Positions 2,189 to 22,202 of a stretch of DNA of 42,149 nt are shown one piece after another. Every line of letters starts with the position of its first letter. Within the stretch, counting starts at the first letter, position 1. Position numbers and translations under genes: made by a program. The notes below the pieces were generated by a model. The model saw nothing but the letters and a program-made list of their open reading frames with translations, was not told where the DNA came from and made no database searches. Source of the stretch: Phycisphaerae bacterium (GTDB taxonomy: Bacteria > Planctomycetota > Phycisphaerae > Phycisphaerales > UBA1924); the NCBI GenBank assembly GCA_016793195.1, contig JAEUJA010000001.1:1-42149 (forward strand), in the 5' to 3' direction.

Positions 2189-2306
2189 AAGAGCACCGAT
2201 GTCGCCGAGCCGACATCGGTGGCACGCGAAAGAGCACCGACCGCGGGGCGCAGTCGATGGCACGGAAGCAGCACCGATGTCTCAAAGCCGACATCGGTGG
2301 CACGAA
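2189..2306. repeat. Three tandem ~39-bp hairpin repeats
   Basis: Two near-identical units contain the perfect inverted repeat CACCGATGTC-N8-GACATCGGTG (arms 2194-2203/2212-2221 and 2272-2281/2290-2299). A degenerate third unit lies between them at about 2232-2267. Each unit ends with GGCACG and A-rich bases. They fill the gap between the divergent sppA and rsmH genes, so they could be operators for a dimeric regulator or a mobile palindromic repeat family. Confidence 0.8.
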
Positions 2307-2353
2307 GATTGAGGACGCAAGTCTACGACGCGGGGGCGGCGTACGCTCCGCGC

Positions 2354-3307
2354 GTGGGTGATGGCCTTGGCCATATTCCGGTGCTTCCCCGCGAGGTGAT
2401 GGGGGTGCTGTCGCCGCATGAGGGCGAGACGTACGTCGATTGCACCGCGGGGCTGGGCGGGCACGCGACGCTGATCGCGCCGCTCGTGGGGGCGAGCGGG
2501 CGGATTGTGCTGAATGACGTGGACGACGGCAACCTGGGCAAGGCGGCTGAGGCGGTGAGGCGGGCGGGGAGTGGGGTGGGCGGGGATCGGTGCCCGGAGG
2601 TCGTGACGATTCGCGGGAACTTTGCGGAGCTGCCGCGGGCGTTGGGGGAGCGGGGGATTCGGGCGGACATGGTGCTGGCGGATTTGGGATTCTCGTCGAA
2701 CCAGGTGGACGATCCGGCGCGGGGGCTGAGCTTCCGGCTGGACGGGCCCTTGGACATGCGGCTGGACGCGAGCCTAAAGCTGTCGGCGGCGGACCTTGTG
2801 AACGGCCTGTCGGAGGGGGAGCTGGCGCGAATTCTGCGTGATTATGGGGAGGAGCGGCACGCGGGATTGGTAGCCCGAAAACTTGTCCAAGCTCGGAAGG
2901 AATCGCCGATCTTGACGACGGCGCGGCTTGCGGAGGTCGTGCGCTCGGTGCTGTCTGGCCGGAGCGGTCCATCGCAGATCGATCCGGCGACGAGGTCGTT
3001 TCAGGCCCTGCGGATTGGCGTCAACGACGAGCTTGGGAGCCTGGAGGCGCTCTTGGCGGCGGTTTTGCGAGGGGTGGGGACTTCGGGTTCGTGGCTCTCG
3101 GGAGGGGCGCGGGTGGCGATCATCTCGTTCCACTCGCTGGAGGATCGGCTGGTGAAGCGGGCGTTTGAGGAGGTCGAATCTCGGGGCGTGGGCGGGGTGC
3201 TCACGCGGTCGCCCGTGATGGCCGACGAACCTGAGCAGCGGGCGAATCCGAGGTCCCGGTCGGCGAAACTTCGCGCGGTTCGAATGGGCGGGGCGCTTGG
3301 CGGCTAG
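2354..3307 (+). CDS. rsmH: 16S rRNA (cytosine(1402)-N4)-methyltransferase RsmH
   Basis: SAM-dependent N4-methylation of C1402 in 16S rRNA, in the cytoplasm. The 317-residue product has the family opening HIPVLPREV (residues 7-15), the SAM site VDCTAGLGGHA, the LADLGFSSNQVDDPARGLSF segment from residue 108, and the C-terminal block VAIISFHSLEDRLVK. The GTG at 2354 was chosen because the family starts a few residues before HIPVL and a G-rich stretch precedes it; in-frame starts further upstream fall inside the hairpin repeats. This is the first gene of a reduced division cluster (rsmH, LysM protein, ftsL-like, ftsI), which supports the assignment. Confidence 0.93.
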   Translation: MGDGLGHIPVLPREVMGVLSPHEGETYVDCTAGLGGHATLIAPLVGASGRIVLNDVDDGNLGKAAEAVRRAGSGVGGDRCPEVVTIRGNFAELPRALGERGIRADMVLADLGFSSNQVDDPARGLSFRLDGPLDMRLDASLKLSAADLVNGLSEGELARILRDYGEERHAGLVARKLVQARKESPILTTARLAEVVRSVLSGRSGPSQIDPATRSFQALRIGVNDELGSLEALLAAVLRGVGTSGSWLSGGARVAIISFHSLEDRLVKRAFEEVESRGVGGVLTRSPVMADEPEQRANPRSRSAKLRAVRMGGALGG

Positions 3308-3324
3308 CGGTGGTTGGTTATGAT
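3297..3324 (+). promoter_or_regulatory. Candidate sigma-70 promoter for LysM-ftsL-ftsI
   Basis: TTGGCG (3297-3302), a 16-base spacer and TATGAT (3319-3324), overlapping the rsmH stop codon. This would allow the LysM-ftsL-ftsI block to be transcribed separately from rsmH. Confidence 0.45.
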
Positions 3325-3460
3325 GCTCGCGTCGGGGTAAGACCCGGCGGGGGAGTTTGAGGAACACGGCGTGGAGCGGCGACACGGACGGGCGTCGCGG
3401 CCGTGAGGCAGGGGAAGGCTTGGTGCGGCCCAAGGTGGGGTCGAAACCGAGGTGCACATC

Positions 3461-4474
3461 GTGAATCGCGAACTGAAGCTGGCGCTCATCATCGGTTTTT
3501 CGCTGGTCCTGCTGGTGACGGTGCTCATCAGCGACCACCTGTCGAAGGCGCGTGGCGTGAAGCTGGCGTCGCCGGACGTGACGCCGAATCTGGTGAAGGC
3601 GTCGGAGCCGGTGGAGCCGATCTCGGGGCTGCCGGGGATGCCGGTGAACAAGACGGCGACGGCGGAGCCGAGTGCGGCGCCGGCGGACGGGCGTGACCGC
3701 GTGGCGCTTGGGAACGAGGGCCCCGCGGCGGTGCCGCAGTTCCCAATCCAGGAAATGGACCAGGGGAAGCACGGCGGGCGGCTTCAGGACGTCGATCTGA
3801 GCGGGCCGAAGGCGAGCAACTCGGACGAGCGATTGATGGAGGCTGCGAAGAACGAGGGCGTGATCCTGACGCCGCCGCTGACGCCGCCGCCGGAGTCGAT
3901 CGATGTCACGCCGGGCGAGCCGAAGCTGGTTGGGAACAACGAAGCCCCGACGATGCGTGAGTACACAGTGGTCGAGGGCGATTCGATGGTGAAGATCGCC
4001 AAGAAGATGTTTGGCGATGGAAACAAGTGGAACCTGATCGCGCAGGCGAATCCCAAGGCCGTGGGCAAGAAGGGCGAGGTTCGGCTGGGCGCGAAGCTTC
4101 GGATTCCGGTGGTTGACATGCCGCTGGCGAAGGACGGGGGCGTGAGGATCATCGATCCGCTCCAGCAGTCGCCGGTCGACTTTGGGGCGTCGGGAAAGGT
4201 CGCGACCAACGCGCCCGTGAAGAAGACGACCAAGCCGGCGACGAAGCCGACGGCCGGCCCCGATGCCAAGGGCAACAAGTCGCCCGCGAAGGCGGAAGCG
4301 AAGAAGGCCGCGCCGTCGACGTACACGGTGAAGCCCGGCGACACGCTGAACACGATCGCCAAGCGTTTGCTGGGCTCGGCGTCGCGGACGGAGGACCTGA
4401 TCCGTGCGAATCCTGACCTGGAGAGCGAGGACGCGATTCGGGCGGGCGACGTGATCAAGCTGCCGATGTCGTGA
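3461..4474 (+). CDS. Membrane-anchored protein with two LysM domains
   Basis: Predicted to bind peptidoglycan from the periplasmic face of the inner membrane. The 337-residue product has one N-terminal transmembrane segment (about residues 7-26, LALIIGFSLVLLVTVLI), a Pro/Gly/Ala-rich linker, a first LysM domain at about 167-217 (YTVVEGDSMVKIAKKMFG...), a Lys/Ala/Pro-rich spacer, and a second LysM at about 287-336 (YTVKPGDTLNTIAKRLLG...). The GTG at 3461 is preferred because GAGG lies eight bases upstream; a GTG at 3452 is the alternative. It sits between rsmH and an ftsL-like gene, where no LysM protein occurs in the standard dcw cluster, so a role in septal or cell-wall attachment is inferred. 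Confidence 0.85.
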   Translation: MNRELKLALIIGFSLVLLVTVLISDHLSKARGVKLASPDVTPNLVKASEPVEPISGLPGMPVNKTATAEPSAAPADGRDRVALGNEGPAAVPQFPIQEMDQGKHGGRLQDVDLSGPKASNSDERLMEAAKNEGVILTPPLTPPPESIDVTPGEPKLVGNNEAPTMREYTVVEGDSMVKIAKKMFGDGNKWNLIAQANPKAVGKKGEVRLGAKLRIPVVDMPLAKDGGVRIIDPLQQSPVDFGASGKVATNAPVKKTTKPATKPTAGPDAKGNKSPAKAEAKKAAPSTYTVKPGDTLNTIAKRLLGSASRTEDLIRANPDLESEDAIRAGDVIKLPMS

Positions 4475-4511
4475 TTGGCGCGGGTGGGCGGGCGAGTGGA
4501 CGGAGCCGGAC

Positions 4512-4892
4512 GTGTTCGCGAAGCTGGCGGCGATCATCTTGGCGCTGGGGATTCTGGGGTGCACGCTCTTGGCGATGCGGCAGCAGCGCTTGCAGGCCGC
4601 GCACGAATTGGCCGAGGCGCAGCTGAGGATTCGCAAGAGCGACGAGCACTTGTGGCTTTTGCGGACGCAGATCGCGCGTCGATTGAACCCCGAGAGCATC
4701 CGGGGGATGGCGACGGGGGCGGGTCCGCTGCGTCCGATCGCGTCGCCGGCGCCGATGATCGTGCCTGAGATCATGGGTCCGCCGGCGCCGCCGAAGCGTG
4801 CGGACGGGGGCGAACGGCGCGGGCCCGGTGGCGGGATTCCGGGGGAGCGGCTGGCGCACGAACCCGAGGGCGTGGAACCGGGGGGACGCTGA
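4512..4892 (+). CDS. FtsL-like small bitopic membrane protein
   Basis: A 126-residue protein with one N-terminal transmembrane segment (about residues 4-21, LAAIILALGILGCTLLA), a short helical, coiled-coil-prone stretch (QQRLQAAHELAEAQLRIRKS), and a Pro/Gly-rich tail from about residue 65. Its position directly before ftsI, its size and its topology match FtsL. FtsL sequences are poorly conserved, so the call rests on topology and synteny. The stop codon overlaps the ftsI start (TGATG), so the two are probably translationally coupled. The Pro-rich tail is not typical of FtsL. Confidence 0.6.
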   Translation: MFAKLAAIILALGILGCTLLAMRQQRLQAAHELAEAQLRIRKSDEHLWLLRTQIARRLNPESIRGMATGAGPLRPIASPAPMIVPEIMGPPAPPKRADGGERRGPGGGIPGERLAHEPEGVEPGGR

Positions 4893-6994
4893 TGTCGGAA
4901 CATGCATCGCACCGGCGTTCGTCGAGGGTGGGGTTCTATAGCGTGTCGGTGATGACGCTGCTGTTGTGCGGCTTGCTGGCGCGGGTGGTGCAGTTGCAGG
5001 TGCGCCCGAGCGAGGAGCTTCGGGAGTATCTGAGGCCGCGGGTCGGCGTGCGAAGCGAGCTGCCGCAGCGGGGCGACATCCTGGATCGTCGCGGGCGGGT
5101 GCTGTCGGCGACGCGGTTTGGGTGGCGGGTGTATGTCGATCCGGTGGAGCTGCCGAAGGAACCTTCGGCGGTGATCGTGGGCTTGGCGGGGGCGCTGGGC
5201 TTGCCAGAAGAGCAGGTGGGCGAGCGGATTCTGTCGCGGATGTCGGAGAACGCGCGGCGGACGCCCGAAGCGCCGGCGACGGTGCAGCCGACGCCCGGGC
5301 AGGTGGTCGCGGAGCTGATCGGGTGGGATGACGCGAGGGTTGATCCGACGCTGGCGGCGGGCGCGGTGGAAGAGGTTGACGAGAACGCCAAGAAGCCGAT
5401 CCGGTACTTGCCGATCGGCGGCGTGATCGAGGACGAGGTCGCGGAGAAGGTGCGGGCGCTGAAGCTCGCGGGCGTGCACATGGAGCGCCGGCCGATCCGC
5501 GAGTATCCGGGCGGGAGCGAGGTCGCGTCGATCCTGGGCAAGGTTGGGTTCGACGGGCAGGGGCTGATCGGCTCGGAGCGGGTGCTGGACCGGCGGCTGA
5601 CGGGCGAGGCGGGCAAGGTGAGCTATGTCCGTGATTCGGCGGGGCGGCCCCTGTGGATCGAGCCCGAGCAGATCAGGCCCGCGACGCCGGGGCATGACGT
5701 GGCGATCTCGATCGATCTAGAGCTTCAGCGGATCGCGTGCGAGGAGCTGATGCGCGGCGTGGAGGAATACAACGCCGCGGGCGGGCGGCTGGTGTGCCTG
5801 GATCCCAACACGGGCGAGATTCTGGCGATGGCGGACATCGTGCGTCCGGTGGCGGAGGCGGTGGGGTATCCGTGGATCGACAAGTCGGTGAGGAAGGGCG
5901 GGCACGAGGCGCCGGTGCCGGCGCCGGCGGTGGGGGGCGTGCGGTTTGTCACGCTGAAGGCGGACCCCGGGCGGGCGATCCATCCGGCGCTGGCGCGGAA
6001 TCGGTGCGTCGAGGACGTGTACGAGCCGGGCTCGACGTTCAAGCCGTTTGTGTGGTCGACGGTGACGGATTTGGGATTGGCCCGGATCGACGAGGTGTTC
6101 GAGACGGGGCACACGACGTGGTTCACGTCGTACGGGCGTCCGATCTCGGACGTGACCAAGCGAGACCAGATGACGTGGGCGGAGGTCCTTGTCAACTCGT
6201 CGAACATCGGCATGGTGAAGGTGGGCGAGCGGCTGTCGTTCAAGCAGTTGCATGACGCGGTGGCGCGGTTCGGCTTTGGGCAGCGGACGAACATCGGGCT
6301 GTCGGGAGAGAGCCCGGGGATCGTGACGCCGATGTCGAGGTGGAGCAAGTACACGCACACGTCGGTGTGCTTCGGGCACGAGGTTTCGGTCACGCCGCTC
6401 CAGATGGTGCGGGCGTTCTCGGCGTTCGCGCGGGAGGGGGACTTGGCGGGGACGCTGCCGACGTTGCGGATGACGGCGGTGACGGATGCGGAGCCGGCGA
6501 ATCGCGTGCTGTACCGCGTGCTGCCGGCGGACGTGGCGGTGCTGACGCGGGAGACGATGCGGGGCGTGACGGGGGCGATGGAGGCCAAGCTCGACGCGCG
6601 CGAGAAGACGACGCACGCGTGGAACTACGAGATCTTCGGGAAGTCGGGGACGGCGGAGATCCCGCTTGGCAAGGCGCCGACGGGCAAGCGGCGGCCGGTG
6701 GGATCGAGCGGGTACTTTGACGGGCAGTACAACTCGAGCTTCATCGCGGGCGGGCCGGTGGAGAGGCCGCGGCTGGTGACGCTGGTGGTGATCGACGATC
6801 CAGGCCCGGAGCTGGCGCGGAAGAAGCTGCACTATGGCGCGTCGACGGCGGGCCCGGTGGTGCGCCGGTTCATGGAGCGAGGGCTGGCGTACCTGGGCGT
6901 GGCACCGGCGCCGAGGGTGGCGCCCGGGGGCGAGGCCAGGCCCGCGTTGACGGGGCCCGCGCGGAGCACGGCGCTCAACAACGCGGGGGAGTGA
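4892..6994 (+). CDS. ftsI: Penicillin-binding protein 2/3-type transpeptidase (FtsI-like)
   Basis: Class B PBP that crosslinks septal peptidoglycan. The 700 residues comprise a transmembrane anchor (about 15-34), the dimerisation domain starting RGDILDRRGRVL (60-71), and the transpeptidase domain with active-site Ser381 in STFK (381-384), the SSN motif at 436-438 and the third motif KSGT at 584-587. Most FtsI proteins have KTG there; Ser for Thr is conservative. A Pro/Ala-rich C-terminal tail follows residue 665. The ATG at 4892 overlaps the upstream stop. The cluster ends here: no murE, mraY or ftsW follows, and the next gene is convergent. Confidence 0.93.
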   Translation: MSEHASHRRSSRVGFYSVSVMTLLLCGLLARVVQLQVRPSEELREYLRPRVGVRSELPQRGDILDRRGRVLSATRFGWRVYVDPVELPKEPSAVIVGLAGALGLPEEQVGERILSRMSENARRTPEAPATVQPTPGQVVAELIGWDDARVDPTLAAGAVEEVDENAKKPIRYLPIGGVIEDEVAEKVRALKLAGVHMERRPIREYPGGSEVASILGKVGFDGQGLIGSERVLDRRLTGEAGKVSYVRDSAGRPLWIEPEQIRPATPGHDVAISIDLELQRIACEELMRGVEEYNAAGGRLVCLDPNTGEILAMADIVRPVAEAVGYPWIDKSVRKGGHEAPVPAPAVGGVRFVTLKADPGRAIHPALARNRCVEDVYEPGSTFKPFVWSTVTDLGLARIDEVFETGHTTWFTSYGRPISDVTKRDQMTWAEVLVNSSNIGMVKVGERLSFKQLHDAVARFGFGQRTNIGLSGESPGIVTPMSRWSKYTHTSVCFGHEVSVTPLQMVRAFSAFAREGDLAGTLPTLRMTAVTDAEPANRVLYRVLPADVAVLTRETMRGVTGAMEAKLDAREKTTHAWNYEIFGKSGTAEIPLGKAPTGKRRPVGSSGYFDGQYNSSFIAGGPVERPRLVTLVVIDDPGPELARKKLHYGASTAGPVVRRFMERGLAYLGVAPAPRVAPGGEARPALTGPARSTALNNAGE

Positions 6995-7227: not shown

Positions 7228-7731
7228 TCACGCGGCGCCGCGGTGGTCGCGCGAATCGCCGGCGTTCTTGTGCGTGCCCGCGGTTGGTTCGCTTGGGCCC
7301 TGGGCGTCGTTGCTCGGCGGTGATTTCGAGTCTGCGGGAGGTGTGCTGGGCGTGAGCCCCATGGCGCGCTCGGCCTTGGCCTTGAGCGCGAGGGCCTCTT
7401 GCTTCAGGCGCTTGAGGATTTTGCGGGCCCAGAGGAACTCGGTGGCCAGGAGCGCGAAACCCAGGAACATGATGGGAATGCCGGGCACGCCGGGGAGGAT
7501 GCCCACGATCAGGCCGAAGAGCACGATCGACATGCCCACGACGAAGATGATCCAGCGGCGGGCGCTCTTCCAGGTCGCCTCGGCGGTCCTGGCCAGGTCG
7601 GCCAGTGCGGTGTCGGCGATGTCGGGCTCCGGCGGGGGCGTGACGGGGCGCGAGGGCACCTCGGCGTCGTGCTCGACGGGCGGGTATTCCGCCGGTGGTT
7701 CCGGCGGGGGCTGGTGTGACGGGTCGCTCAT
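7228..7731 (-). CDS. PGPGW-family small membrane protein
   Basis: A 167-residue protein of unknown function. A Pro-rich N-terminal tail (to about residue 45) precedes two adjacent hydrophobic segments (IIFVVGMSIVLFGLIVGILP and GIPIMFLGFALLATEFLWA) joined by PGVPGIPI, the variant of the PGPGW signature. A basic helix and an Ala/Pro/Ser-rich tail follow. The ATG at 7731 overlaps the stop of the upstream terC gene (ATGA), making it the last, coupled gene of the manganese-type operon. A link to metal or envelope homeostasis is only suggested by that position. Confidence 0.8.
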   Translation of the reverse strand: MSDPSHQPPPEPPAEYPPVEHDAEVPSRPVTPPPEPDIADTALADLARTAEATWKSARRWIIFVVGMSIVLFGLIVGILPGVPGIPIMFLGFALLATEFLWARKILKRLKQEALALKAKAERAMGLTPSTPPADSKSPPSNDAQGPSEPTAGTHKNAGDSRDHRGAA

Positions 7732-8954
7732 CCGTGGGTGCGCTCCGTCATGGGTGACTCCGTGATCGCGGCGTCGGGCTTGATCTCTTGGGCGCGGGCG
7801 AGCGGCGGAGCGGTCGGCGCGTCGGTGGTCTCGACACCGTTCGCGGCCCTCTTGGCGGGGGTGTTCGCGGCTTCGGCGGTGCCATTGGACTGTTCTTGGG
7901 AACCCGAGGTGAAGGATGCCACGAGTCCGACGAGCATGAGCGCGCCGATGGTGGCCAGCGAGGCATAGGGCGACAGGTGGGTGGGCAGGCCGATGGCGCG
8001 GGTGGCCTCGAACTCGTCGAGGATGGGCAGGAGCATCTTGACGCCGATGAAGGCGAGGATCGCGATCATGCTGTACTTGAGGTAGCGGAACTTGGACGTG
8101 AGGGCGGCGACGGCGAAGTAGAGCGAGCGCAGGCCCAGGATCGCGAAGCAGTTTGAGGTGAGGACCAGGAAGGGGTCGAGCGTGGTGCCGAAGATGGCGG
8201 GGATGGAGTCGACGGCGAAGATGACGTCGGCGAACTCCACGCAGAGGAGGACGAGGAGCATGGGCGTGGCGGCCAGCGCGCCGTTGAAGCGGACGAAGAA
8301 GGCCGAGCCGTGGTAGTCCTTGGTGACGTTGAGGAGGCGTCGGGCGGCGCGGACGACGACGTTTTTGTCGAGGTCGGGGGCTTCTTCCTCGCCGGCGCGG
8401 AGGAGTTTGATGGAGGAATAGACGAGGAAGGCGCCGAAGACGTAGAGGATCCAGTCGAAGCGTGAGACGAGGGCGGCGCCGGCGGCGATGAGCAGGCCGC
8501 GGAGGACGACGGCGCCGAGGATGCCCCAGAAGAGGACGCGGTGCTGGAACTGGGCGGGCACGCGGAAGAAGGTCATGATCATGGCGATGACCATCATGTT
8601 GTCGAGGGAGAGCATGAACTCGAGGAGATAGCCCTGGAAGAACATGACGGCGGCTTCGCGGCCGTTCTCGGGGATGAGCGCGTCGTGGGGGCGGGGGTCG
8701 GCGGCGGCGGCGGCGACGACGGGGGGCTGGCCGGGCTCGATGGCGGCGGGGGTTCGGCCGCCGAGGCCCGCGACGTGGTTGTCGTAGAGGAAGAAGACGC
8801 CGACGTTGAAGGCGACGGCGACGCAGAACCACATGGCGGTCTGGCGGAGGGCCTTGGCGACGCCGATGGCGTGGGAGCCGCGGTTGAGGAAAAGGAGATC
8901 GAGGGCCAGGAGCGCGCCCAGCAGGGAGAGGAACGTGATGTAGATGAGTGTCAT
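7728..8954 (-). CDS. TerC family membrane protein (Alx/MeeF-like), copy 1
   Basis: Multi-pass inner-membrane protein of the TerC family; characterised members export Mn2+ or supply it to secreted metalloenzymes. The 408 residues include the family's acidic membrane motifs SLDNMMVIAMIMTFFRVP and EFADVIFAVDSIPAIFGTT, then FAILGLRSLYFAV. About 60 hydrophilic residues (Thr/Ala/Glu-rich) extend the C-terminus beyond the usual end. The ATG at 8954 was chosen because it starts directly at the first membrane segment; an upstream in-frame ATG at 9146 would add 64 unrelated residues and cross the heptamer array. It is the third gene of the operon led by a yybP-ykoY riboswitch, and no second aptamer was found directly upstream of it. 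Confidence 0.9.
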   Translation of the reverse strand: MTLIYITFLSLLGALLALDLLFLNRGSHAIGVAKALRQTAMWFCVAVAFNVGVFFLYDNHVAGLGGRTPAAIEPGQPPVVAAAAADPRPHDALIPENGREAAVMFFQGYLLEFMLSLDNMMVIAMIMTFFRVPAQFQHRVLFWGILGAVVLRGLLIAAGAALVSRFDWILYVFGAFLVYSSIKLLRAGEEEAPDLDKNVVVRAARRLLNVTKDYHGSAFFVRFNGALAATPMLLVLLCVEFADVIFAVDSIPAIFGTTLDPFLVLTSNCFAILGLRSLYFAVAALTSKFRYLKYSMIAILAFIGVKMLLPILDEFEATRAIGLPTHLSPYASLATIGALMLVGLVASFTSGSQEQSNGTAEAANTPAKRAANGVETTDAPTAPPLARAQEIKPDAAITESPMTERTHG

Positions 8955-9052
8955 GGCGAGGGCGTGGGAGGGAGCGTGGGAGTGGCGGGGGGCGTCGCCG
9001 CGACACGGCGCGGCCAAGGAAGCAGATGGTAGGGAGGGGACGGGGAGGGAAA

Positions 9053-9087
9053 GGGCAATGGGGAATGGGGAATGGGCAATGGGAAGA
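9053..9087. repeat. Heptamer tandem array C (GGGGAAT/GGGCAAT), 5 units
   Basis: Units GGGCAAT, GGGGAAT, GGGGAAT, GGGCAAT, GGGAAGA run without a break, preceded by a looser G/A-rich stretch from about 9031. They lie in the gap between the zinc-ribbon gene and terC copy 1, inside a predicted operon, so they would be transcribed. CAAGCGAG occurs at 9144-9151. Confidence 0.85.
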
Positions 9088-9152
9088 GTGGCGCCGGTCG
9101 TCGAAGCGAAGATGTGGGCGTGTGGCAGGTCAGGTTGAGCGAGCAAGCGAGC

Positions 9153-9614
9153 CTATGACGTTGGCGGGGTGTCGACGCCCTTCCAGTAGCGGCGGAGTTG
9201 ATCGAGGGAGAAGGGATGGCCGCACTCGGGGCACTTGCCGGCGTCGCCCAGGCCCCTGAGGTCGTGGAGGCAGTTGCCGCACATTCGGCCTTGGAAGGAG
9301 CGGGCACGTTTCTTCGTGAGAACTTCCGCGATCCAGAACCAGACCGGTGGCACGCTCATCGAGAACACGGCACCGAGGCTGCCCAGGAAGATGATCCGTG
9401 ATTGCTTGATGAATGATTCCATCGATCGGATACTGGTGTCATCAACCGCGATCAATCGATTCTCCACGAAGCGCTGCATGAGCGCGAGCACCCCAAGGCC
9501 CGCAAAGAACACGATGGCCACGGTTCGCATCCGGCGCCATGCGATCGGCGCGACGCGTGAGTTCCAATGTCGATCGATGAGTTGTTCCAGCACGCGGGGG
9601 ATTGTAGTGGCCAT
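9153..9614 (-). CDS. Zinc-ribbon membrane protein of unknown function
   Basis: A 153-residue protein with two predicted transmembrane segments (about 31-46 and 74-98). A cytoplasmic-type zinc ribbon follows at the C-terminus: Cys112-x2-Cys115, twelve residues, Cys128-x2-Cys131 (CGNCLHDLRG...CPECG). Such a C-terminal CxxC...CPECG module after membrane helices is a recurrent planctomycete architecture as I know it, with no established role. It lies one base after the stop of terC copy 2 and upstream of terC copy 1, so it is co-transcribed with two putative Mn transporters. A metal-sensing or accessory role is inference from that location. Confidence 0.75.
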   Translation of the reverse strand: MATTIPRVLEQLIDRHWNSRVAPIAWRRMRTVAIVFFAGLGVLALMQRFVENRLIAVDDTSIRSMESFIKQSRIIFLGSLGAVFSMSVPPVWFWIAEVLTKKRARSFQGRMCGNCLHDLRGLGDAGKCPECGHPFSLDQLRRYWKGVDTPPTS

Positions 9615-9615
9615 G

Positions 9616-10848
9616 TCACGCCACTTTCTTCGGCCACATCACCGACAACACGGTCGCCATCGCGAGCGTGCCGAGCACGGCGAGCAGCGACGCGGTGGTG
9701 CTGATCTTGATTGAGGAAGCGGGCCGCCAGTCCTGGGCGAACCAGTTTCCGATCACGTCGAGATAGGGCGGCACGCTCATGAGGAGGAGTTTCACGCCGA
9801 CGAACGCGAGGATGAGAATGAGGGCGGGCTTGAGGAAGCGGAACTTGGTGATGAGGGCGGCGAGGCAGAAGTAGAGGGCGCGCAGGCCGAGGATCGCGAA
9901 GATGTTGCTGGTGAAGACGATGAAGGGGTCGGGGGTGATGGCGAAGATGGCGGGGATGGAGTCGACGGCGAAGACCAGGTCGGTGATCTCGACGATGAGC
10001 AGGGCCAGGAAGAGGGGCGTGATTGCCCAGGCGGCGCGGAGCGAGCCCGGCGGCGGCGGGTCCTGCACGAGCTTGCCGGTCTTCGGATCGGGCGAGTAGG
10101 TCGGTGGGAGGGTGCGCTTGGTGAAGAACTTCTGCCCGTCGTAGAAATCGACGAAGGGGAGGAATCGCTTGCAGAGGCGGACGGCCCAGTTCTGCGAGGG
10201 ATCGTCGTGGCCCTTGATGAGGGCCATCTTGATCGCGGTCAGCACGAGGAACGCGCCGAAGACGATCAGGATCCACTGGTACTTCATGATGAGTGCGGAG
10301 CCCAGAAAGATCATGCCGCCGCGCATCACGAGAGCGCCGATGATGCCCCAGAAGAGGACGCGGTGCTGGTACTTGGCGGGGACGGCGAAGAAGGCGAAGA
10401 CGAGGGCGATGACGAAGATGTTGTCCATCGCGAGGGATTTCTCGACGATGTAGCCCGTGAGGTATTGCTTGGCGGCGGTCAGGCCGTCGACGGTGCCGGT
10501 GATGATGACGTCGTGGGCGGCGCCAGGGCTTGGGTTGTAGATGGGCGTGGTGAGGCCGAGGTTGAGCCAGTGGCGTTCATAGGCGACGTAGACGAAGCCG
10601 GCGAACGCTATGCCGCAGGTGAGCCAGATGACGGACCAGGTGATGGCTTCCTTCATCGCGACTTCGTGGGCGTCGCGATGGAATACGAAGAGGTCGAGGG
10701 CGAGGAAGGCGAGCACGAGCGCGAGGAAGGCGGAATAGGCCCAGAACTTGGGCGAAAGCTCGAAGCCCAGGAAGGTCGACGGCTCGGCTGCCGCCTGCGC
10801 GAGCGTGTGGAGGGAAAAGAGGTCGAACGACGACGCGAGATCGAGCAT
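9616..10848 (-). CDS. TerC family membrane protein (Alx/MeeF-like), copy 2, riboswitch-controlled
   Basis: Putative Mn2+ exporter, first gene of the operon. The 410 residues carry the TerC motifs SLAMDNIFVIALVFAFFAVP and EITDLVFAVDSIPAIFAIT, then FAILGLRALYF, with about eight or nine hydrophobic helices. A soluble loop of some 50 residues (RLCKRFLPFVDFYDGQKFF...) lies in the middle. The ATG at 10848 was chosen because the in-frame upstream extension to 10926 translates riboswitch sequence. A G-rich stretch (GGGGG) lies a few bases upstream as a possible ribosome site. A yybP-ykoY aptamer with its own promoter lies directly upstream, which matches the regulation of TerC-type Mn transporters elsewhere and strengthens the Mn assignment over the historical tellurium name. 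Confidence 0.92.
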   Translation of the reverse strand: MLDLASSFDLFSLHTLAQAAAEPSTFLGFELSPKFWAYSAFLALVLAFLALDLFVFHRDAHEVAMKEAITWSVIWLTCGIAFAGFVYVAYERHWLNLGLTTPIYNPSPGAAHDVIITGTVDGLTAAKQYLTGYIVEKSLAMDNIFVIALVFAFFAVPAKYQHRVLFWGIIGALVMRGGMIFLGSALIMKYQWILIVFGAFLVLTAIKMALIKGHDDPSQNWAVRLCKRFLPFVDFYDGQKFFTKRTLPPTYSPDPKTGKLVQDPPPPGSLRAAWAITPLFLALLIVEITDLVFAVDSIPAIFAITPDPFIVFTSNIFAILGLRALYFCLAALITKFRFLKPALILILAFVGVKLLLMSVPPYLDVIGNWFAQDWRPASSIKISTTASLLAVLGTLAMATVLSVMWPKKVA

Positions 10849-10890
10849 AAAGACCCCCGAGCGCCCAAGGCGCACGGACCGACGAATAAG

Positions 10891-11036
10891 CCGGTTGGTC
10901 TTGCTCAGCGCGCCGCAGATCGGCACGACGCCGAAGGAGCCGGGCGGGCCGACGGGGCCCCCGTGTTGACGACTCCAACGCCCGGGCGGTCGTTTCGGAT
11001 GAAACAGGCCGCGATCGGGAGGCTACTCCCCAACGG
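10891..11036 (-). promoter_or_regulatory. yybP-ykoY manganese riboswitch
   Basis: Read on the minus strand, the region shows the family's conserved parts in order. These are GGGGAGTAGCC (11031 to 11021), then the loop element GTCGTCAACACGG, a GC-rich arm (CCCGTCGGCCCGCCCGG), and the closing GCAAGACC (10904 to 10897). P1 is formed by CCGTTGG (11036 to 11030) pairing with CCAACCGG (10898 to 10891) with one bulge. The region between the aptamer and the terC ATG contains a hairpin, GCGCC/GGCGC, just before the G-rich ribosome site, so translational control is plausible. Known members sense Mn2+ and switch on Mn exporters. The downstream gene is a TerC protein, as expected. Confidence 0.9.
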
Positions 11037-19095: not shown

Positions 19096-20661
19096 CTAAT
19101 TCAACGGGACGCCGGCGATCGGCGTCCCGTCTTTGTTTGCGCACATCGCGTAGACGCGCACGCCGCTGTCGAGCAGACGGCGCGCCTCGCGGGGTTCACC
19201 GGCCAGCAGGTGGCAGGTGGGGGCGGCGACTCTCAGGGCCGCGGCGGCGGCGAGCAGCGGGGCGTTCAGCGTCGCCCACGCGAGCGCGGCGTCGAGCTCG
19301 CACCAGGCCCGCCCGGTCTCGCCGGGAGCACGCGCCGACGCCACCAGGTGCAGCGAACCGGCCGCGTCACGCGCCAGCGCCACGCCCGGCGCGACGGGGC
19401 ACGCCAGCGAAATCGGCGATAGGCCCTCGATGAGGGCGACGAGGGCGCTGGGCGCTGCGAAGGACGGGGAAACTGGCGCGTGCGGCGTGTCCGACCGGAG
19501 CGCGTCGGGAATCGAAACCGGCGTGGGAGTCGGCGCGGCGTCGGACGCCGACTCGGGCGCCATGTCGGGCGTGGTCTGGGTTGCAAGCACGGGGTCGAGC
19601 GGGCGACGCGGCCGGCGCGATTCGAGCGGGCCGACCTGGCCGGCGGGCGACATTACGTCGTGCAACGCGGCCCTGTAGGCGTCGGTGCGGGTCACGTTCC
19701 GAGCGCGAGCGTCGGGAGTCATCGGGGCTTCGGGCGGGGTGGGGGCGGCGTCGCCGGTGGGTGCCGGCTGGCCACGGCATTCCAGGAGCGGCACGAGTGA
19801 GTCGAGCGAGGCTGGCGAGATGCCACGGAACAGCGTGCGCGAATTCCACGCCGTGACTCTGACGGCGCCAGGGACGAGTTCGATCTCGCGCCCCAGGAAG
19901 GTGCGCGACGCGGCGGCGAGCTTGTCGGCGGCGGCCTTGGCCTTGTCGCCCGCGGCGCCCATGATCGCCAGCCGCACGATCTTGTCGCGGGTGTCGTCGC
20001 GGGTGCCGAGGGACTTGAGCGTGCGATAGCAGGCGACGACCGCGGCGTCGTCCGAGCCGCAGAGCAGCGTCAGCGACGTGATGGAGGGGAGCGCCGCCAG
20101 CGCGGGCTCGTCGGTCTCGTCGACCTGGACCAGCCAGCGCCGGGCTTGGGAGTTGGCGGCGCGGACGGCGTCCTCGGGCGAGGCACAAGGCGCGGGTTCG
20201 GCGGAAGCGTTGAAGAGATCGATGCTGGTGGTGCCGGCGCGGACGCGGAGCAGGGCCGTGCAGCCCGCGTCGTCGGCGCTGAGCTTGGTGAACTGCCCGA
20301 CCCAGGCGGAGGCCAGGACGGGGAGATGGCCCAGGATGAGGGCTTCGACACGAGGCTCGGGGAGCGGGCCGAGATCGTCGTGGCGATCATGCTGGCGGAT
20401 CGAGGTATCTTCGACGAACGGCGCGGAAGGGCCGAGGTTGACGCTCGGCGCGGGCGCGACGGGCTCCGCCGGGCGGGGCGGCGACGACTCGAAGGCGCGG
20501 GCGGGCGCCAGCGGCCCGTCGCCCAAGAAAAGGTCCGCCAGCGCGTCGGTCGGCTGGGACCCGGCCCTGCGGAATGGGATCGGCGCGTCGCTCCGCATGG
20601 ACATGCCCGATTCTCCCTCGATGCTCACGCGACGATGACCCGGCGACGATTCAACGCTCAT
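19096..20661 (-). CDS. Partner of the ParA-CBM48 protein; degenerate MinD/FlhG-like fold predicted
   Basis: A 521-residue protein of unrecognised family. Residues 1-100 are disordered and Pro/Ala-rich. Residues 105-270 resemble the second half of a MinD/FlhG-type fold: GHLPVLASAWVGQF (111-124), then WLVQVDETDEPALAALPSIT, LTLLCGSDDAAVVACYRTLK and LAIMGAAGDKAKAAADKLAA ending at TFLGREIELVPGAVRV. No Walker A lysine loop is visible, so it would not hydrolyse ATP. A second disordered stretch (300-400) leads to a compact Ala/Leu-rich C-terminal domain (405-521). The ATG at 20661 overlaps the upstream parA stop (ATGA), so the two are translationally coupled. The last 30 bases carry the clpX terminator hairpin. 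Confidence 0.7.
   Translation of the reverse strand: MSVESSPGHRRVSIEGESGMSMRSDAPIPFRRAGSQPTDALADLFLGDGPLAPARAFESSPPRPAEPVAPAPSVNLGPSAPFVEDTSIRQHDRHDDLGPLPEPRVEALILGHLPVLASAWVGQFTKLSADDAGCTALLRVRAGTTSIDLFNASAEPAPCASPEDAVRAANSQARRWLVQVDETDEPALAALPSITSLTLLCGSDDAAVVACYRTLKSLGTRDDTRDKIVRLAIMGAAGDKAKAAADKLAAASRTFLGREIELVPGAVRVTAWNSRTLFRGISPASLDSLVPLLECRGQPAPTGDAAPTPPEAPMTPDARARNVTRTDAYRAALHDVMSPAGQVGPLESRRPRRPLDPVLATQTTPDMAPESASDAAPTPTPVSIPDALRSDTPHAPVSPSFAAPSALVALIEGLSPISLACPVAPGVALARDAAGSLHLVASARAPGETGRAWCELDAALAWATLNAPLLAAAAALRVAAPTCHLLAGEPREARRLLDSGVRVYAMCANKDGTPIAGVPLN
19104..19140 (+). terminator. Intrinsic terminator of clpX, inside the 3' end of the convergent gene
   Basis: ACGGGACGCCG (19104-19114) and CGGCGTCCCGT (19120-19130) form a perfect 11-base-pair stem with loop GCGAT, followed by CTTTGTTTGC. 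It begins 31 bases after the clpX stop. The same bases encode the last residues of the minus-strand partner gene. Confidence 0.8.
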
Positions 20662-22202
20662 TCGACGTGGACCACGCTGTTGTGCTCGCCGAACGGGTTG
20701 ACCTCGGTGCCCGGGTTGAACGAGTCGGCGCACCAGCGCCCGTCGATGACGAGTCGGTAGGAGTGCCGTCCGGGCGGCATGGGAACGCACAGTTCGAGCA
20801 CGCCGAGCTGGGGGTTCGCGCGAAGCCGGTGCGCATCCGGCGACCAATTGTTGAAGTTTCCCGCGACGCACACGTCCCCGCCGAGGGACATGGGCTGGAC
20901 GAAGAGGACGCCCTGACGCGTCGAGCGGGCGCCGAAGAGGCGGGCGACGACCGGTGGTGTGGCGGCGGGCGGGCGAACCTCCAGGGCATCGGCCATGAGG
21001 GAGACGCGCGCGGGTTCGGGGGAGGCGTGAGTTGTCGGCGGGGGAGCTGCCTGAACGTGGGCAAGAGCGCGGGAATGTGCGACGGCCGCGGGCGTTTCCT
21101 GATCGTGATCGCGCCGCATGAGCTTCTGAGCGCGGCGAGCGACGTCCTGGGCCCGGGAGATGCGGGATTCGCCGAGGGGCTCGAGCGCCGGCGCCGCGGA
21201 CACGGCGGGGCCTGAAACCGGGTGCGGCGGGTGGCTTTGATGGGAAATCGGCGCGTCCGCGGACGTGACGCCGGCGAGGGCGGGCTCGGTGGCGGGGATC
21301 GGCTCGTGCAGGTCCGGGCGCATGGTGTCGCCGGCGCTTGCGACGCGGTGGGCGACCTCGGCGGTGCTGACGGCGTTGGCGACGACGCGGACGGGGCTGA
21401 CGCCGGAGGCCGCGGAGGCCTCGGTCGCAAGCCCGATGACCGCCAGCAGCCAGTCCGAGAGCAAGGCGTAGTCGGTCGAGCCGTGGGACTCGTGGTCGTG
21501 GTCGATGATGGGGCGTCCGAATGCCGCGGCTTCTTTTAGCTTTGGGTCGCGCCGGATGGCGATGGGGGCGACGCGATCGACGAACTGGCGGCGGAGCTCG
21601 TCGAGCAGGGCGGAGGAGTGAACATCGTCGGGGTCGTGGAGCGTGCCAAAGAGGCGGACGGGCGTCTGTACGCCGATGCGTCGGTTCAGGCTCTCGACGG
21701 TCTGCACCTGCTTGGCCGCCCCCTGCAAGGCAAAGTACCCGGTTTCGACGGGGATGAGGACGGTGGTGGCTGCGGTGAGGGCGTTGAAGGTCAGGAGTCC
21801 GATGGAGGGGGGGCAATCGATGATGGTGGCGTCGTAGTCGGCCGAGAAGTGGTTGAGGAGGTTGGCGAGGCGGCGTTCCTTGTCGGGCTTGTCGGCCAGC
21901 CCGCCGCGGGCGGCTTCGAGGCCCGCGAGCTTCATGCGGCTCGGGGCCAGGTCCAGGCCCCGGGCGACGCGCCAGAGGAGACGGCTCTGATCGATCGAGC
22001 GAGGGGGCGCGAGGAGGGCGTCGGCGATGTCAAGGTCGATGCGAGCTTCAGGGATGCCGAGGCCTGCGGCGCAGTGGGCCTGGGGGTCCATGTCGACCAG
22101 GAGGGTGCGGATGCCGCGTTTGGCCCAGACCCCGGCGAGATTGATCGCGCTGGTGGTCTTGCCGCATCCGCCCTTTTGATTGATAATCGCGATGGTCCGC
22201 AT
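20658..22202 (-). CDS. ParA/Soj-type ATPase fused to a C-terminal CBM48 (AMPK-beta-like) domain
   Basis: The 514 residues begin with a complete ParA/Soj ATPase: deviant Walker A KGGCGKTT (10-17), switch VDMDPQAH, Walker B region IIDCPPSIGLLT and ALQGAAKQV. ParA proteins form ATP-dependent dimers that position DNA or cellular cargo. A disordered Ala/Pro/His-rich linker (about 260-410) joins it to an Ig-like glycogen-binding domain at about 414-514 (VCVAGNFNNWSP...YRLVIDGRWCAD...). This domain keeps the carbohydrate-contact residues of AMPK-beta: Trp453 in NNW, Trp490 in GRW and Asn508. The ATG at 22202 directly starts the ATPase. There is no parB, so chromosome partition is unlikely. The coupled next gene is the probable partner. 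Positioning of glycogen or another glucan cargo is an inference. Confidence 0.88.
   Translation of the reverse strand: MRTIAIINQKGGCGKTTSAINLAGVWAKRGIRTLLVDMDPQAHCAAGLGIPEARIDLDIADALLAPPRSIDQSRLLWRVARGLDLAPSRMKLAGLEAARGGLADKPDKERRLANLLNHFSADYDATIIDCPPSIGLLTFNALTAATTVLIPVETGYFALQGAAKQVQTVESLNRRIGVQTPVRLFGTLHDPDDVHSSALLDELRRQFVDRVAPIAIRRDPKLKEAAAFGRPIIDHDHESHGSTDYALLSDWLLAVIGLATEASAASGVSPVRVVANAVSTAEVAHRVASAGDTMRPDLHEPIPATEPALAGVTSADAPISHQSHPPHPVSGPAVSAAPALEPLGESRISRAQDVARRAQKLMRRDHDQETPAAVAHSRALAHVQAAPPPTTHASPEPARVSLMADALEVRPPAATPPVVARLFGARSTRQGVLFVQPMSLGGDVCVAGNFNNWSPDAHRLRANPQLGVLELCVPMPPGRHSYRLVIDGRWCADSFNPGTEVNPFGEHNSVVHVE

Follow-up and report, generated by a model that had tools for sequence, protein, structure and literature searches.

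The locus described here encodes a ParA-family ATPase that ends in an AMPK-beta-type carbohydrate-binding module (CBM), followed directly by a gene for a degenerate relative of FlhG, and its most likely and most economical reading, which we hold tentatively, is that of an ATP-gated tether or positioner between the nucleoid and a glucan. The locus suggests that Phycisphaerae place their glucan reserves, or pass them to daughter cells, as other bacteria position chromosomes. It is possible, if doubtful, that this is the first system in bacteria for the active positioning and partitioning of glycogen-like storage particles, consisting of a ParA with its own glucan hook and a dead FlhG-like regulator, and ancestral to the class. 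The cargos placed by ParA/MinD ATPases include chromosomes, carboxysomes, chemoreceptors, and others. A review from 2025 on the positioning of bacterial organelles treats carboxysomes, magnetosomes, PHB, and polyphosphate, and leaves glycogen unmentioned (PMC13052382). An earlier note on this DNA knew of no characterised system with this architecture, and we likewise found no characterised system, and no paper describing the architecture, in the open-licence literature. With a class-wide ParA that bears a sugar-binding module, recognition of the cargo would lie in the ATPase itself, and carbon reserves would be linked to cell architecture; the placement and sharing of glycogen in bacteria thereby becomes testable with one expressed protein and two mutated tryptophans.

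The window (the whole stretch of DNA analysed, 42,149 nucleotides) carries the ParA-CBM gene with its ATG at 22202 and its terminal TGA at 20658, and the encoded protein has the N-terminus MRTIAIINQKGGCGKTT. Its features are:

20658..22202 (-): ParA-CBM gene, 514 aa; Soj-type ParA ATPase, linker, and AMPK-beta-type glycogen-binding module
21435..22202 (-): ParA/Soj ATPase domain, residues 1-256; Pfam AAA_31, 3.2e-42
22152..22175 (-): deviant Walker A KGGCGKTT, residues 10-17, intact; K10, G11, G12, G14, K15, and T17 invariant (n=49 homologues)
22059..22094 (-): switch I, DMDPQAHCAAGL, residues 37-48; His43-Cys44 directly after DPQ in 49/49 homologues
21120..21155 (-): linker helix RAxELxxRAxxL, residues ~350-368; AF2 helix pLDDT ~82, surroundings <50
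20661..20933 (-): AMPK-beta-type CBM, residues 424-514; holds Trp453, Arg483, Trp490, and Asn508

The description of the protein in the earlier note as a Soj-type ParA with an intact Walker A is borne out by the AAA_31 match and by KGGCGKTT at residues 10-17. The family profile of the ATPase domain matches Soj structures at 1e-59 to 1e-61 and the ParA structure 8ray at 6.8e-74, and the predicted model has the Soj fold (Foldseek, TMt ~0.9 to Soj/ParA structures). The deviant Walker A (KGGxGKT), Walker B, and the switch residues are invariant among the 49 homologues, as is W77. The His-Cys pair after DPQ is missing from the aligned Soj/ParA structures, and this invariant, family-specific pair is a putative active-site signature. 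In the window's family, an aspartate (D192) stands where the main ParA DNA-contact arginine of the DxRT motif is expected (DNA-contact positions from PMC7229837); most of the class retains Arg192, and the basic residues nearby in the window's family are an Arg217/Arg218 pair and Lys221. Loss of this arginine in the window's family, with Arg217/Arg218 nearby, tells against a nucleoid tether. Models of BcsQ, itself a ParA/MinD-family relative, also match the ATPase domain, and this kinship is the one point in favour of the second idea of the earlier note, a glycan-linked envelope machine as the target, in the manner of BcsQ with cellulose synthase. Such a target is very improbable, given that AMPK-type CBMs bind alpha-1,4 glucans, and that no gene for making envelope glycans is a recurrent feature of the locus, with the exception of a heptose kinase-like gene (named by eye) in one lineage.

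Structure models were predicted with AF2 from two alignments of relatives, one for ParA-CBM and one for the partner. For ParA-CBM, the model has an ATPase domain predicted with confidence, a ~150-residue disordered linker, and a likewise confident C-terminal beta-sandwich; the short helix in the linker is conserved at Ala358 (45/49 homologues) and Leu361 (41/49). Structure prediction of the C-terminal domain had been set beforehand as a test, and it returned an Ig-like beta-sandwich with nine strands in residues 424-513 at pLDDT ~96. The Pfam model AMPK1_CBM (PF16561) matches residues 441-514 above its cut-off (E 3.5e-9; 37.2 bits versus 26.8) while CBM_48 itself (PF02922) gives only 0.26 on the same C-terminus, and "AMPK-beta/CBM48 type" is therefore the right wording for the domain that the earlier note had called AMPK-beta/CBM48-like. 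The single ParA-CBM sequence matches solved AMPK beta-2 CBMs at 3e-7 (phmmer), and a family profile of the CBM matches AMPK CBM structures at 2.4e-12. Trp453, Trp490, and Asn508 lie exactly at the positions that the earlier note gave for the glycogen contacts: W453 is equivalent to AMPK W100, R483 to K126 (a conservative change), W490 to W133, and N508 to N150, all four of which are carbohydrate-holding residues proved by mutation in AMPK (PMC4032982, PMC6274970). Among the 49 homologues, W453, R483, and W490 are each found in 49/49, Y482, D487, G488, and D493 are also invariant, and position 508 has Asn in 45 sequences and Asp in three. Many relatives additionally encode free-standing AMPK1_CBM proteins of 100-170 aa, placed apart from ParA (e.g., L107:4246-4569 (-)).

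These residues bear on a serious rival, in which the CBM-like domain no longer binds sugar and instead docks the partner or another protein. W490 or N508 is lost in some lineages, as docking would allow; that W453, R483, and W490 never vary in 49 divergent sequences, on a domain much of whose other surface is variable, would be hard to account for without ligand stacking, and we regard docking as unlikely.

The window's genome encodes enzymes that act on alpha-glucans, including an alpha-glucan phosphorylase (TIGR02094; 490.8 bits versus a cut-off of 191.7), a synthase-like GT4/GT5 protein that scores below the curated cut-offs, a GH57 protein, and a GH13 protein. The classical GlgC/GlgA pathway was considered and rejected, being found in only 1/61 relatives (G046), and relatives other than this one have the GT4/GT5-like protein instead. 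This synthase-like glycosyltransferase of ~480-500 aa (L285:2256-3695 (+)) is kept in 49/61 Phycisphaerales-type genomes, and is perhaps an unrecognised type of glycogen synthase. In four of the five genera that have no synthase-like protein, GH57, or phosphorylase, N508 is changed to I, H, T, or A, compared with replacement in three of the 39 other CBM-bearing genera (36/39 have N or D; Fisher p 0.0012), an association to be read as a lead because the test is post hoc and takes no account of common descent, and the assemblies used are incomplete. A presence/absence link between the CBM and the glucan synthase was looked for across genera and was not found: the synthase-like gene is present in 6/6 genera whose ParA has no CBM, which excludes a simple link of this kind, and two genera (G009 and G026) have an intact CBM and no synthase. 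Both of these patterns count against a glucan tether, and the lack of a tie between loss of the CBM and loss of glucan enzymes is a point in favour of protein docking.

The gene that follows ParA-CBM starts inside the ParA stop codon, as the earlier note had it, with the sequence across the ParA stop and the partner start reading ...GAATGAGC... and the two genes sharing an ATGA overlap in an operon-like arrangement. The features of the partner are:

19096..20661 (-): partner gene, 521 aa; its ATG shares the ParA TGA
20521..20547 (-): N-terminal helix DALADLFLG, residues 39-47; conserved in nearly all partners
19786..20361 (-): pseudo-FlhG (MinD-family) domain, residues 101-292; AF2 pLDDT >90
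19099..19461 (-): C-terminal alpha/beta domain, residues 401-521; pLDDT mostly >88

A Pfam search gave no match for the partner. Its family profile matches FlhG (4rz2) at 1.2e-10 and FleN at 9e-7, and the model of residues 101-292, predicted with confidence and with an FlhG fold, has a VIA Z of 12.4 to FlhG and of 10.8-11.4 to FleN, with unrelated rows at <10. The proposed MinD/FlhG fold without a Walker loop can thus be given more precisely as a pseudo-FlhG. The P-loop site reads GHLPVLASAW (nucleotides 20302-20331), and because GHLPVxxxxW, common to many partners, stands in place of a P-loop, the partner should not hydrolyse ATP; it is a degenerate FlhG relative, not a member ATPase. The alternative that it is a diverged copy of ParA was rejected (hhalign probability 0.2%). 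In one genome that also carries the partner (G153, L291), a P-loop FlhG-like protein adjoins an FlhF-like gene, and such P-loop FlhG-like proteins are distant relatives of the partner. The N-terminal helix is modelled at residues 37-46 within a disordered region, and the C-terminal domain has no match among PDB sequences at E<=10.

For the distribution of the fusion, ~85,000 bacterial and archaeal species genomes (GTDB) were scanned for the CBM pattern, using a six-sequence CBM alignment as the query, so that fusions with diverged CBMs could be missed. Of 111 confirmed loci, 80 were kept, nearly all from genomes named as planctomycetes and none from a genome named as another phylum. The CBM is fused to ParA in 79/80 of these, the remaining one being cut by a contig end, and a match to the partner profile lies nearby in 44/80. 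In a 294-genome sample of the phylum, ParA-type CBMs at E<1e-25 are confined to the window's class, Phycisphaerae, and to one genome outside it (G117, L274), in which the CBM is also fused to ParA and the ATPase domain sits on a long branch; this case may reflect either shared descent or an independent fusion. That the fusion extends across the class speaks for a single function that has been retained.

ParA is matched in 61/61 relatives and the partner in 56/61 with a single-sequence query (a profile recovers more), and the two genes are adjacent in most loci examined. Conservation of the two genes together, on which the pairing had been staked, holds within the order Phycisphaerales, where the partner follows ParA throughout, and fails across the whole class: ParA-CBM occurs without the partner in other orders, which also tells against a glucan cargo, and an unrelated gene takes the place of the partner in loci from genomes named as Sedimentisphaerales and from some others. 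A diverged partner (2e-19) is found in G116, from a second lineage of the class. Docking of the CBM specifically to the partner is at odds with this distribution, since the CBM occurs without the partner in the Sedimentisphaerales-named genomes and the partner without the CBM in five loci.

In the tree of ATPase domains, in which some long branches are placed with less certainty, ParAs without the CBM branch at four points from within the CBM-bearing family; given this scatter, the CBM looks ancestral and lost several times independently. The partner is kept in 5/6 CBM-less loci, which points to a role of ParA and partner that is independent of the CBM and is a further point against a glucan tether; ParA is the hub, with the CBM and the partner each usual and each separable from it. 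Covariation of the GHLPV motif with the CBM was considered and rejected: G027 and G036, which have lost both, fit, but a G[HN]LPV motif is still present in the CBM-less loci L119, L129, and L130, and L196-type partners without the motif accompany an intact CBM. In G041, the CBM of ParA itself is degenerate, and a separate 191-aa protein carries a ParA-type CBM (L132:7073-7648 (+)), which looks like gene fission, domain transfer being possible.

Persistence of ParA and partner after loss of the CBM is what would be expected if the module were regulatory and not a cargo hook. In this second serious rival, the CBM would sense alpha-glucan as it does in AMPK, the closest relative of the module, and tune the ATPase, and the pair would position a different target, such as division or envelope machinery, in step with the state of the reserves. 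A maf-like gene recurs among the neighbours (by eye) and, in the window, a mraW/PBP cell-wall cluster lies ~15 kb away, both of which fit such a carbon-state switch; the position of the CBM at the end of a disordered linker of ~150 residues would be odd for an allosteric sensor, and we consider the switch rather improbable.

In the window, aroB and rsfS lie upstream of ParA-CBM, and downstream, in convergent orientation, is a gene taken as clpX on its length and sequence, which occupies the same place in relatives. Across loci, the neighbours include aroB, rsfS, clpX, dnaG, maf, dnaJ, and clpB (several named by eye). The earlier note reported no parB, and none was recognised beside ParA at the loci examined, where the adjoining genes are aroB, the partner, clpX, or other non-ParB genes, so that the ParABS arrangement of parB adjoining parA was not found there. 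A glycogen operon nearby was also rejected, as no glucan gene recurs within 6 kb in the 80 loci, which weighs against the tether. Elsewhere in the window, positions 2219-6994 (+) hold a cell-wall cluster (MraW methylase, a LysM-domain protein, and a PBP transpeptidase), and positions 7728-10926 (-) hold two genes for TerC-family membrane proteins, with a small gene (9153-9614) between them.

The preferred reading is thus a nucleoid-based positioning or partitioning ATPase with the cargo hook built into it. ATP-bound ParA dimers would bind the nucleoid, and the C-terminal AMPK-type module would bind cytoplasmic alpha-glucan in a glycogen-like particle, which would thereby be tethered to the nucleoid, distributed along it, and shared at division. 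The catalytically dead partner would bind the ParA dimer, either regulating its ATPase or linking it, as an adaptor, to a second target. We favour a tether because of the sequence and fold of the CBM, its class-wide contact residues matching those of AMPK, the invariant ParA motifs, the fusion across the class, the alpha-glucan enzymes in the window's genome, and (post hoc) the N508 changes in enzyme-less genera. An additional point against it is that, in characterised ParA/MinD systems, it is usually the partner, and not ParA, that binds the cargo.

Compared with Soj/ParA (Thermus thermophilus, Helicobacter pylori, and Bacillus subtilis), ParA-CBM has the fold, Walker A/B, and switches I and II in common, with ~35% identity in the ATPase domain; it differs in the His-Cys after DPQ, the long linker, the C-terminal CBM, the lack of a recognised ParB at the locus, and, in the window's family, the lack of the main DNA-contact arginine. 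McdA/McdB carboxysome positioning likewise pairs a ParA-family ATPase with an adjacent small partner gene and a carbon-related particle (here a proposed one), but McdA is more distant from ParA-CBM than Soj is (20% identity) and has no cargo domain, and in place of an McdB-like protein the present locus has a pseudo-FlhG partner of two domains. PhaM/PhaF are work-alikes that spread the PHB storage granule over the nucleoid (PMC13052382), using no ATPase, a different polymer, and unrelated proteins. The central domain of the partner has the fold of the flagellar-number ATPases FlhG/FleN (Z ~12), but unlike these the partner has no P-loop, lies outside a flagellar operon, and carries an extra C-terminal domain. 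With the CBM of the AMPK beta-subunit (PF16561, of the CBM48 kind), the module has sequence, fold, and W-W-Asn contacts in common, with Arg replacing K126; whereas the AMPK module sits in a kinase complex, the bacterial one sits on a ParA ATPase.
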